Shown here: piece after piece, positions 58,771-64,000 of the stretch
Numbering within the stretch: position 1 is the stretch's first letter
How the letters are laid out: every line of letters starts with the position of its first letter
Source: Methylococcus sp.
Lineage (GTDB): Bacteria > Pseudomonadota > Gammaproteobacteria > Methylococcales > Methylococcaceae
DNA length: 64,000 bases
Reading direction: 5' to 3'
Assembly: GCA_028688525.1 (NCBI GenBank)
Contig: JAQTYA010000006.1
Coordinates: 1 to 64,000, forward strand
The notes under the pieces: model-generated
The model's database searches: none
Told to the model about the DNA's origin: nothing
The model's input: the letters and a program-made list of their open reading frames with translations, nothing else
Position numbers and translations under genes: made by a program

Positions 58771-61350
58771 TCAATCCTCCTTGGAAAACTTGAGCCCTTC
58801 CCCCTCGCTCTCCACACGAATGACGTCGCCGGGCAGGAAGCGGCCGCCGAGTATGTCCAGCGCCAGCGGATTTTCCAATTCCTGCTGGATGGCACGCTTC
58901 AGCGGCCTCGCTCCATAGACCGGATCGAAGCCGGCGTTGCCGAGCTGATCCAGCGCAGCGTCGGACACCACCAGCGAGAAATCCCGGGCTTGTAAGCGTT
59001 CTTGCAAATGCTTGATCTGGATCCGGGCGATGGCGCGGATCTGGTCTTGCCCCAGGGGATGGAACACCACCGCCTCGTCGATCCGGTTGATGAACTCAGG
59101 CCGGAAATACTGGCCGACGATCTCCATGACTTCGGCCTTCATCTGCGCATAATGCGCCTCACCGGACAGCTCCTGGATGCGGCCGGAGCCGAGATTGGAC
59201 GTCATCACCACCACCGCATTGCGGAAATCTACGGTGCGGCCTTGGCCGTCGGTAAGACGGCCATCGTCGAGCACCTGGAGCAGTACGTTAAACACGTCCG
59301 GATGTGCCTTCTCCACCTCGTCCAGCAGGATTACGGAATAGGGTTTGCGCCGGACAGCTTCCGTCAGATAGCCGCCTTCTTCGTAGCCGACGTAGCCGGG
59401 CGGAGCGCCGATCAGCCGGGCGACCGAGTGCTTCTCCATGAATTCCGACATGTCGATGCGCACCATGGCTTCGTCGGTGTCGAACAGGAACTCGGCCAAG
59501 GCCTTGCACAGCTCGGTCTTGCCCACACCGGTCGGCCCTAGGAATAGGAAAGAGCCGTTCGGTCGGTTGGGATCGGCCAGACCGGCGCGGGACCGCCGTA
59601 TGGCGTTGGATACTGCGGCGATTGCTTCCTGCTGTCCGACCACCCGGCGGCCGAGGTTTTGCTCCATCTGCAGCAGCTTCTCACGCTCGCCTTCGAGCAT
59701 TTTAGCCACAGGGATTCCGGTCCATTTGGAGACGACTTCGGCTATCTCCTCATCGGTCACCTTGTTGCGCAACAACTGGAACTCATCGTTCTCGCCGGCT
59801 TCGGCGGAGACGAGGCGCTTTTCCAATGCCGGAATCTGTTCGTACTGGATCTGGCCGGCGCGGGTGAGATCGCCGCTGCGCTTGGCATTGTCGAGATCCT
59901 GCCTCGCCTTTTCCAGCTCCTCCTTGACACTGGCGGCACCGGACAGACGCGACTTCTCGCTTTTCCAGATTTCTTCCAGATCAGCGTATTCCTTCTCCAG
60001 CTTGCCGATCTCGCTTTCTAGGGCTTCCAGTCGTTTGCGAGAAGCCTCGTCGGTTTCCTTCTTCAAGGCTTCGCGCTCGATCCTGAGCTGGATCAAACGC
60101 CTGTCGAGCCGGTCCATCTCCTCCGGCTTGGAATCGATCTCCATGCGGATGCGGCTGGCGGCTTCGTCGATCAAATCGATCGCCTTGTCGGGAAGTTGAC
60201 GGTCGGTGATATAGCGGTGCGACAACGTGGCCGCGGCCACGATCGCCGGATCGGTGATGGTGACGCCGTGATGGACCTCGTAGCGCTCCTTCAAACCGCG
60301 CAGAATGGCGATGGTGTCCTCGACCAGCGGCTCATCCACCAGCACCTTCTGGAACCTACGTTCCAGCGCCGCATCCTTTTCGATGTATTTGCGGTATTCG
60401 TCCAGGGTAGTAGCACCGATGCAATGCAATTCGCCGCGCGCCAGCGCGGGTTTGAGCATGTTGCCCGCATCCATAGCCCCTTCCGCCTTGCCCGCCCCGA
60501 CCATAGTATGCAGCTCGTCGACGAATAGGATGACCCGGCCTTCCTGCTTGGCGATGTCGTTGAGCACTGCCTTCAACCGCTCCTCGAACTCCCCGCGGAA
60601 CTTCGCCCCGGCGATCAGCCCAGCCATGTCCAGCGCCAGCAGACGCTTACCCTTGACGCCTTCCGGCACTTCGCCGTTGATGATGCGCTGGGCCAGGCCT
60701 TCGACGATGGCCGTCTTGCCCACGCCGGGTTCGCCGATCAGCACCGGATTGTTCTTGGTACGCCGCTGCAGCACCTGGATGGTCCGCCGGATCTCGTCGT
60801 CGCGGCCGATCACCGGATCGAGCTTGCCGCGTTCCGCGCGTTCGGTCAGGTCGATCGTATATTTGGCGAGCGCTTGGCGTTGTTCCTCCACATTCGGATC
60901 GTCGGCAGACTGGCCGCCGCGCATGGCATCGACGGCCCTCGCCAACATGTCCTTGTTCAAACCGGCCTTGCGCAAGACATCGGAAACCTCGCCCCGCGAA
61001 TCCAGCACGGCCAACACGAACATCTCGCTAGTGATGAACTGGTCGCCCCGCTTCTGGGCTAGCTTGTCGGTCAGGTTGAGCACCCGCGACAGATCCGCCG
61101 AAATCTGCACATCGCCACCCACGCCTTCCACCGAGGGCATGCGCTCCAGCACGGCGTTCAACGCCTCCTGCAGCTGGGAGACGTTCACCCCGGCTTGTGC
61201 CAGCAGCGGACGCACCGTACTGCCTTCTTGATCGAGCAGCGCTACCATGACATGCGCAGCTTCGATGAACTGGTGGTCGCGCCCAAGCGCCAGGCTCTGA
61301 GCGTCGGCCAGAGCCGCCTGAAATTTACTGGTCAGTTTGTCCATTCGCAT
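58771..61350 (-). CDS. clpB: ATP-dependent disaggregase ClpB
   Basis: [41 protein letters not shown], ClpB middle domain; 859 aa. Confidence 0.97.
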
Positions 61351-61388
61351 CGGTTCAACCCCTCAAGGCTGTATTCATTGTCTGCGGT

Positions 61389-61415
61389 TGTGAGGGCGGG
61401 AACATCTATTTCAAG
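61389..61415 (-). promoter_or_regulatory. Candidate sigma-32 (heat-shock) promoter for clpB
   Basis: Exact CTTGAAA -35 (TTTCAAG at 61409-61415 on plus), 12-nt spacer, CCCTCACA as weak -10. Confidence 0.5.
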
Positions 61416-61536
61416 CATAGTCTCTGGAGTACCCAAGGTACGGGCCCTGTGGGAGAATACCGGCGGGGGATCGACCCCGGATGACGGCTCGGCGACCCCT
61501 TCTCGGGGAATTTTCGCTGCGGCGTTGTCTAACAGG

Positions 61537-61559
61537 CGCATGCGTCGATCGTGCATGCG
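61537..61559. promoter_or_regulatory. Operator-like dyad upstream of the MNIO RiPP precursor
   Basis: CGCATGC-gtcgatcgt-GCATGCG (7-9-7), ends 33 bp before the ATG. Confidence 0.45.
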
Positions 61560-61592
61560 TACTTAAACTCACCTTGGAGGATTCGAGCTGCT

Positions 61593-61922
61593 ATGAGCAA
61601 AAAATTCAATAAAACTTCGCTGTCGACCGTCATGGGCACCGCCCTGGCCACCTCCCTGTCGGCCGGTGCCGTCGTGGCCGCCGAGAACCCCTTCGCCGCC
61701 AAGGAATTGACCAGCGGCTACATGCAAGTCGCCGAAGCCGGCAAAGATCAGAAGGAAATGAAGTGCGGCGCCGAAGTGATGAAAGGCAATCCGGAGATGA
61801 AATGCGGCGCTTCCATGATGCAAGGCACCGATGCCAAAGCGACCGAAGGCAAGTGCGCTGGTATGAAGAAGGAAGGCGCCTCCCCGGCACCCACCCCTGC
61901 CGGAACTCCGAAAGCGCAGTAA
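61593..61922 (+). CDS. HvfA/bufferin-type RiPP precursor: signal peptide + Cys/Met-rich core (EMKCG, EMKCG, EGKCA)
   Basis: Signal peptide; conserved-looking ENPFAAKELTSGYMQVA; three KC motifs; GGAGG RBS at 61576-61580; followed by DUF692 and DUF2063 genes. Confidence 0.85.
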   Translation: MSKKFNKTSLSTVMGTALATSLSAGAVVAAENPFAAKELTSGYMQVAEAGKDQKEMKCGAEVMKGNPEMKCGASMMQGTDAKATEGKCAGMKKEGASPAPTPAGTPKAQ

Positions 61923-61950: not shown

Positions 61951-62802
61951 ATGATCGAGAAAGCCAACGTCATTCGCGGCGCGGGTCTCGGCCTGCGGCG
62001 CGGCTTCATCGAATCGGTGGTTGCCGATCCTCCCGGATCGGTAGACTTTTACGAAGTTGCGCCGGAAAACTGGATGCGAATGGGTGGCCGCAACGGCCGC
62101 CTGTTCCGTTCCTTGACCGAGCGCGTCCCCTTCGTCTGCCATGGGTTGACGCTCTCTCTCGGCGGTCCGACTCCGCTGGACGAGTCTTTTCTCACCGAAC
62201 TCAAGGCGTTCCTAGAACTTCACTCCATACCGATCTACAGCGAGCATCTAAGCTATTGCAGCGACCGAGGACATCTCTACGATCTGCTGCCGATCCCGTT
62301 CACCGCTGAAGCGGTGCACTATGTTGCAGCACGCATCCGCCGAGTCCAGGATATTCTGGAACGGCGCATCGCCATAGAAAACGTGTCCTATTACGCCGCA
62401 CCCGGCCAGGAAATGGATGAAGTCGACTTCCTCAAAGCAGTACTCGCGGAAGCCGATTGCGACCTGCTGGTCGATATCAACAACATCTATGTCAACAGCA
62501 TCAATCACGGCTACGACGCGGAAGCTTTCCTGCTCGCGCTGCCGCACGAGCGCATCGCCTACGCCCACATGGCCGGCCATTATGTACAAGCCCCCGATTT
62601 CCTGATCGATACTCATGGCGCGCCGATCATCGATCCGGTATGGAAACTGCTCGGCACAGCTTACGCTGCCTTCGGCAATTTCCCCACGCTGCTGGAACGC
62701 GATTTCAACATTCCGCCTCTAACCGAACTCCTGAACGAAGTGGCCGGGATACGGATCTTGCAGCTACAAGCGGCCGAACCGGCGAAACGGCGTCATGGCT
62801 GA
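61951..62802 (+). CDS. DUF692 family multinuclear non-heme iron oxidase (MNIO; HvfB/BufB-like)
   Basis: [87 protein letters not shown](T)[10 protein letters not shown]. Confidence 0.93.
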
Positions 62803-63553
62803 ACCTGAACTCGCCTTCCAACGCCTACAGCTGGCGTTCGCGTCCCACATCAGGGAACCCGCCCGGAATCCAGCACCGCCGGATGTTGCATCCGAACGCA
62901 TGGCGATCTATCGGGAACTGCTCTACAACAACATCGAAAGCTTCATCGGCAACGGTTTTCCCGTTATCCGGCAGATACTGGGAGAGTCGCGCTGGAACGC
63001 CTTGGTACAGGATTTTTTCGCTCGCCATGTGTGCACCACGCCGTATTTTTCGGAAATTTGCGAAGAATTTCTGGCTTTTCTGGAGCAAGAGCGAGGCCAG
63101 GTGGAAGACGACCCACCGTTTTTATTCGAGCTTGCCCACTACGAATGGGTAGAACTGGCTTTGGCGATCCATCAGGCCGAGTCGTTTCCTGCCCATCCCG
63201 GCTTGCCCGCCGACTGGATGAAGTGCCGCGTCGAACTCTCCCAGCTGGCCTGGAATCTGGCCTACCGCTATCCGGTCCATCGCATCGAGCCGGATTTCAT
63301 GCCGGACTCTGCGCCGGAAACTCCAAGCTTACTCCTGGTGTACCGTAACCGAGAGGACCAAGTCCGGTTCCTGGAAAGTCCGCCTCTGCTGCACCGCTTG
63401 CTCGAACTGTTCGACCGGAAGCAAGCACTTGCGGTCGAAACGCACATCGAACAACTGGCCAGCGAAATCGGCGGTGATGCCGCGGTATTGAGCCGGCAGG
63501 TCCAACCGGTATTGGAAGACCTCCACGAACGCGGGATACTCCGCCTGACCTGA
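62795..63553 (+). CDS. DUF2063 domain MNIO partner protein (HvfC/BufC-like)
   Basis: [15 protein letters not shown]...[34 protein letters not shown]; 8-nt overlap with the MNIO gene. Confidence 0.9.
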
Positions 63554-63558
63554 TCCGG

Positions 63559-64000
63559 TCAGCTCAAGCTCAGCCGGGCGCCGGCATCACCCCCATCCTC
63601 GCCCGACAGTTCAACATCCAACAAGTAAATCCGATTCGCCGAAATCCCTCTCTGCATGAGATAGCTGCGTATGCCAGCAGCGCGTGATTGAGCCAGCCGG
63701 CGCAGGTCGATCTCGTTGATGGACCAGTCTTTCAACACCGTCTTGCGGGCGCTTTCGAACAAGCCCGTGCTCAGAACCCGCTGACCTTTCGGCAACTCCG
63801 CCCATTCGGTTGCGCCGGGATAACGCAACCGGTAGAACTGGCTGAACAATCGCCGTTCGTCCTCATCCGACAACACTACCGCACCGGCCGCTCCCTGGTC
63901 CCCTGAACCGATGCGCAACTCGATGGCTTTGGCATTCTCTAGTTGCCGCTTTAACTGTTGTTCGGCTAGTGCACTGGAATCGCGCTCGCTCCTAGCGGTT
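63559..64000 (-). CDS. C-terminal part of a large DUF748-like protein (runs off window end)
   Basis: Frame open to base 64000 with no stop or good start; RRLAQSRAAGIRSYLMQRGISANRIYLLDVELS C-terminal pattern. Confidence 0.65.
   Translation of the reverse strand, partial: TARSERDSSALAEQQLKRQLENAKAIELRIGSGDQGAAGAVVLSDEDERRLFSQFYRLRYPGATEWAELPKGQRVLSTGLFESARKTVLKDWSINEIDLRRLAQSRAAGIRSYLMQRGISANRIYLLDVELSGEDGGDAGARLSLS

Follow-up and report, generated by a model that had tools for sequence, protein, structure and literature searches.

The stretch of Methylococcus DNA analyzed here (64 kb; hereafter, the window) has at its end a three-gene unit on the forward strand, in which a gene for a small precursor peptide is followed by genes for an MNIO (DUF692) enzyme and for a partner protein with DUF2063 and RRE domains. 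The genes and the features of the precursor are as follows:

61593..61922, + strand: HvfA-like precursor gene, 109 aa with three Cys; open reading frame with orthologues in five further Methylococcus genomes
61593..61682, + strand: Sec-type signal peptide (aa 1-30) predicted from sequence, likely cleaved after VAA
61683..61751, + strand: leader, ENPFAAKELTSGYMQVAEAGKDQ, proposed as the RRE-binding segment; NPF...GY...VAE is kept in relatives, the binding role being putative
61755..61769, + strand: core motif 1, EMKCG (Cys58), proposed product of VCGEG loss from EMVCGEGKCG
61794..61808, + strand: core motif 2, EMKCG (Cys71), orthologous to PEM[N/K]CG of relatives
61845..61859, + strand: core motif 3, EGKCA (Cys88), orthologous to KAMEGKCAGM of relatives
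61951..62802, + strand: MNIO (DUF692) of the HvfB family; NF003818, 427 bits (cut-off 360); PF05114; PDB 3bww, E=3.5e-73
62795..63553, + strand: PME1 partner (DUF2063 + RRE) of the HvfC family; NF050145, 296 bits (cut-off 142); PF09836 and PF22106; PDB 3dee

The original prediction had placed an HvfA-like precursor beside DUF692 and DUF2063 genes, and the HvfB- and HvfC-family scores of the two neighbors bear this out. The reading frames of the MNIO and PME1 genes overlap, and the precursor-MNIO-PME1 order is also seen in relatives. Signal peptides are the rule for this precursor class (PMC12452194), and the nearest solved structures, 3bww for the MNIO and 3dee for the partner, are the two given for the MNIO-PME1 class in PMC12668002. 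Of the marks of a captophorin, i.e., an MNIO-PME1 gene cluster of the Lys-Cys group, the locus has the HvfB-family MNIO, the adjoining DUF2063 + RRE partner (PME1), a precursor with Lys-Cys 5-mers (EMKCG, EMKCG and EGKCA) and the Arg-Arg and Asp-Phe specificity residues of Lys-Cys MNIOs. The latter (R16, R17, D251 and F252) match R15/R16/D249/F250 of FonB. The precursor itself scored 9.8 bits with the HvfA-domain model NF050137 (KCGExKCG_twice; cut-off 19.5) and falls outside it, in keeping with the prediction that its core departs from tandem EGKCG. Membership of two other families was not supported. With the methanobactin model TIGR04159 (MbnB-family MNIO), the enzyme scored 39.7 bits against a cut-off of 325, and its partner is of the HvfC family rather than MbnC. 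With the bufferin (BufB) model NF050167 it scored 269 bits against a cut-off of 310, and the precursor had no Pfam match, DUF2282 being the one sought.

DoxX does not lie directly 3' of the partner gene, the next gene being on the opposite strand; this is the C-terminal part of an OmpA-like protein (63559-63999, minus strand), which ends the operon. On the other side, ClpB (58771-61350, minus strand) is divergent from the operon, and a CTTGAA-type heat-shock-like element was seen by eye in the intergenic region common to ClpB and the precursor (61339-61430). Immediately upstream of the precursor (61525-61592), GCGTTGTCTAAC and, after it, an inverted repeat built around CGCATG...CATGCG are kept in Methylococcus genomes, with apparently paired changes in strain Texas; they form a possible operator. 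Within the window, the dyad near 61536-61560 was not beyond chance at 3 mismatches, and a sigma-70 promoter scan found none. A regulatory RNA upstream of the precursor was considered and rejected, as there was no Rfam match and folding was no better than that of shuffles.

On contig C63 (5748-8300), the source genome, which is 87% complete, has a further captophorin locus. Its precursor reads MKDGKCGEGKCG...KEGNCG...KEGGCSG, with an EGKCG doublet, and it has its own MNIO and HvfC-family partner. DoxX-like and zinc-finger anti-sigma-like proteins were read from its translated flanks.

Core motifs and their distribution

As originally described, EMKCG starts at 61755 and again 39 nt on, at 61794, and EGKCA starts at 61845; all three motifs are exact and in frame with the ATG at 61593. 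The segments around them are EMKCGAEVMK, GNPEMKCGASMMQGTDAK and ATEGKCAGMK. The 39-bp internal repeat that had been reported holds as a repeat of protein motifs but not as a duplication of DNA, since the two 39-mers share 26/39 bases and an equally good pair arose in 2.9% of 1000 codon shuffles of the open reading frame. The DNA repeat is thus only weakly above chance; the real signal lies in the protein motifs, and there is no clear sign of a recent duplication. Tandem duplication at the DNA level was also rejected as the source of the 39-bp spacing because, in addition to this low identity, comparison with relatives shows that the spacing arose around a gap of five residues and a single additional residue.

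To place these motifs among MNIO-adjacent precursors, the comparison that had itself been proposed as a check, we took the upstream precursors at loci with 102 MNIO matches, leaving 93 after duplicates were dropped. EGKCG was present in 64, EGKCA in 35, EMKCG in 22, EMNCG in 14 and EMVCG in 12. Methionine at the glycine position and alanine after the cysteine had been taken for exceptional features of the core, a view that these counts do not sustain: EMKCG is no oddity, any EMxC motif occurs in 47 of the 93 precursors, and C-terminal EGKCA is widespread in the family of the window precursor. All 47 EMxC precursors came from the methanotroph order; among sample loci without an order code, EMxC was found in two only, both Methylococcaceae. 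The EMxC share is inflated, as the sample was gathered partly by similarity to the window precursor. A class-wide sample, drawn by enzyme and thus free of this bias, yielded 24 upstream candidates, of which three were evidently spurious open reading frames; EMxC was found in 0/24 and EGKCG in nearly all. EMxCG is therefore a trait of the methanotroph order. A literature search on EMKCG, covering main texts, returned no relevant paper; a supplement of PMC12668002 may list the motif.

The expectation of many extra methionines was also borne out, with seven in the precursor downstream of the likely signal peptide. After the NPF leader motif, methionine makes up 9.7% of residues in window-type members of the family vs 3.2% where the precursor comes from outside the order.

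Repeat number in the precursor family changes fast, as illustrated by four order members (L111, L112, L118 and L036) with long repeat arrays, in which Cys can number a dozen or more. Truncated cores were seen in L106 (genome G014), which is without the leader and doublet region, and in L092 (genome G026), which has a single EMKCG; these may represent assembly error or real decay.

Absence of the cysteine doublet in Methylococcus

Most members of the family read EM[V/T]CGEGKCG...PEM[N/K]CGAM...KAMEGKCAGM, whereas the Methylococcus layout is EMKCGAEVMK.NPEMKCGASMM...EGKCAGM. One related genus (g11) shares this layout, with EMKCG, ESKCG, EAKCG or EGKCG as motif 1 and mostly EKKCA as the last. On these alignments, the distinctive trait is the absence of the EGKCG doublet from Methylococcus and this one genus, most family members having kept it. 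The loss of the Cys doublet is the real difference that the original prediction overlooked.

In the alignment, a gap of five residues falls exactly between EM and KCG (EM-----KCG vs EMVCGEGKCG), and an in-frame loss of five residues, from EMVCGEGKCG to EMKCG, is the best account of the singlet core. We infer the direction: loss is the simpler one, given that doublets occur across most of the tree, and the doublet could, formally, have been gained elsewhere instead. On the MNIO tree, the doublet/singlet distribution needs one to two changes, with the starred branches forcing at least one, and a single origin was not rejected when both singlet groups were held together (p-AU 0.43). The difference also affects detection. 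Doublet relatives scored 26-28 bits with the HvfA-domain model (cut-off 19.5) and singlet forms 9.8-16.6, so that automatic annotation may overlook a singlet precursor.

The singlet precursor is well conserved within the genus, its orthologues in the five other Methylococcus genomes being 85-91% identical. Across the six genomes, 10 of the 15 motif codons were identical, five varied synonymously only and none non-synonymously; non-synonymous variation affected 4/39 codons in the whole core (aa 54-92) and 6/17 in the C-terminal tail. Judged by these codons, the motifs are under purifying selection. The locus was intact, with its MNIO, in 6/6 Methylococcus genomes examined. In the two rated near-complete or complete (G003 and G004), its MNIO was the only such gene found; the other four have a second.

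Predicted modification and copper binding

This Methylococcus locus is probably an operon for a captophorin (HvfA/oxazolin-type), the product of which would be modified at three sites and bind Cu(I). In the mechanism that we propose, the HvfC-like protein would bind the NPF...GY leader, and the HvfB-like di-iron enzyme would carry out a four-electron oxidation of each of Cys58, Cys71 and Cys88, giving 5-thiooxazoles, each linked to the Lys that precedes it. The peptide would be exported by Sec and would bind copper(I) in the periplasm, perhaps aided by the thioethers of neighboring Met residues. The three isolated sites, in place of a doublet plus two, would stem from an ancestral EM[V/T]CGEGKCG...PEM[N/K]CG...EGKCA that lost five residues in frame.

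An altered modification pattern, as suggested originally, is not indicated. At positions 1-2, FonBC accepted every non-Pro substitution tried except Arg at position 1; at position 5, Ala was accepted and no other residue tested was (PMC12668002). EMKCG and EGKCA are therefore predicted substrates and, since the window MNIO keeps the residues of the Lys-Cys class, unchanged 5-thiooxazole chemistry is expected. Arg-Arg and Asp-Phe are found in most of the enzymes, whether doublet or singlet. Characterized MNIO-PME1 products bear 5-thiooxazoles and generally bind Cu, and the six Cys of HvfA have been reassigned to 5-thiooxazoles (PMC13419390); three such rings with Cu binding are thus the best prediction for the window precursor. 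Its most likely function is to bind copper(I) in the periplasm by means of these three 5-thiooxazoles.

Counting against this explanation, a minimal FonA substrate with a single EGKCG repeat was left unprocessed by FonBC in vitro (PMC12668002), and the three sites of the window precursor are all isolated. Both observations favor a precursor that is a partial substrate, with only one or two Cys, e.g., that of the canonical-looking EGKCA, being modified and the rest remaining as free thiols or disulfides. We regard this as unlikely, given that 15/15 motif codons are without amino-acid change in the genus, that isolated sites occur in many related precursors and that, with one Cys of a doublet mutated to Ala, MmrBC still modified the other. 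Having lost one Cys along with the canonical EGKCG, the precursor might also be read as under relaxed constraint, being decaying or unmodified, with the operon on its way out. Decay of this kind is highly improbable, however, for a locus that is intact in 6/6 genomes, whose MNIO gene is the only one detected in two that are near-complete, and in which core changes are mostly synonymous.

Compatible with the captophorin reading is a tentative further one, that Met at position 2 and around each Cys would supply thioether ligands that shift copper affinity, redox tuning or metal choice relative to EGKCG peptides. The confinement of EMxC to the methanotroph order in this sample and the figures for methionine given above (9.7% vs 3.2%) are consistent with it, although the Met residues may be neutral or serve the substrate fit of the enzyme. 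Metal binding or preference may be altered through methionine, as in the original prediction.

Significance and relation to known systems

M. capsulatus is a standard methanotroph, in which copper determines which methane monooxygenase is used. A chalkophore had been claimed for this species despite the absence of a methanobactin operon; a genome survey found none in M. capsulatus Bath, its authors remarking that any chalkophore there must differ from known ones (PMC3621798). A later transcriptome paper termed the evidence on the M. capsulatus chalkophore conflicting. Being present in 6/6 Methylococcus genomes, and the sole MNIO locus found in two rated complete, the EMKCG locus is a concrete and testable copper-peptide candidate, and one that escapes the standard HvfA model. 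That the copper-binding compound reported from M. capsulatus comes from this Met-rich singlet captophorin, its Met residues tuning it to methane oxidation, is a doubtful proposition to which we give little weight; most 5-thiooxazole pathways described in the literature are switched on by an excess of metal. EMKCG precursors also provide naturally occurring single-site substrates with which to study the movement of MNIO-PME1 enzymes from site to site.

Taken together, the kind of copper-binding peptide is already known, and its Met-rich, spaced-out repeat is a variant conserved across the genus. Oxazolin of nontypeable Haemophilus influenzae (HvfA-HvfB-HvfC; PMC13419390) shares the signal-peptide precursor, the X-Lys-Cys-Gly sites, the HvfB-family MNIO and the HvfC-family PME1. 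It has three AEGKCGEGKCG units, whereas the window precursor has isolated EMKCG, EMKCG and EGKCA, is Met-rich, fails the HvfA-domain model and lacks the adjoining DoxX that directly follows in many members of the captophorin family. Fontiphorin and related captophorins (FonABC, NgoABC) have the same Lys-Cys enzyme determinants and tolerate variants that include the window motifs (PMC12668002), but fontiphorin consists of tandem EAKCGEGKCG repeats with seven sites. Bulbicupramide (MmrABC, Microbulbifer) is likewise made by an MNIO/DUF2063 pair acting on EGKCG-type sites, with single-Cys modification possible, but from doublet cassettes with 5-8 Cys. Finally, methanobactin (MbnABC) is also an MNIO-modified copper peptide of methanotrophs, from which the window system differs in its MbnB-family score (39.7 vs 325), in having PME1 rather than MbnC as partner and in its expected ring, a 5-thiooxazole rather than an oxazolone-thioamide.
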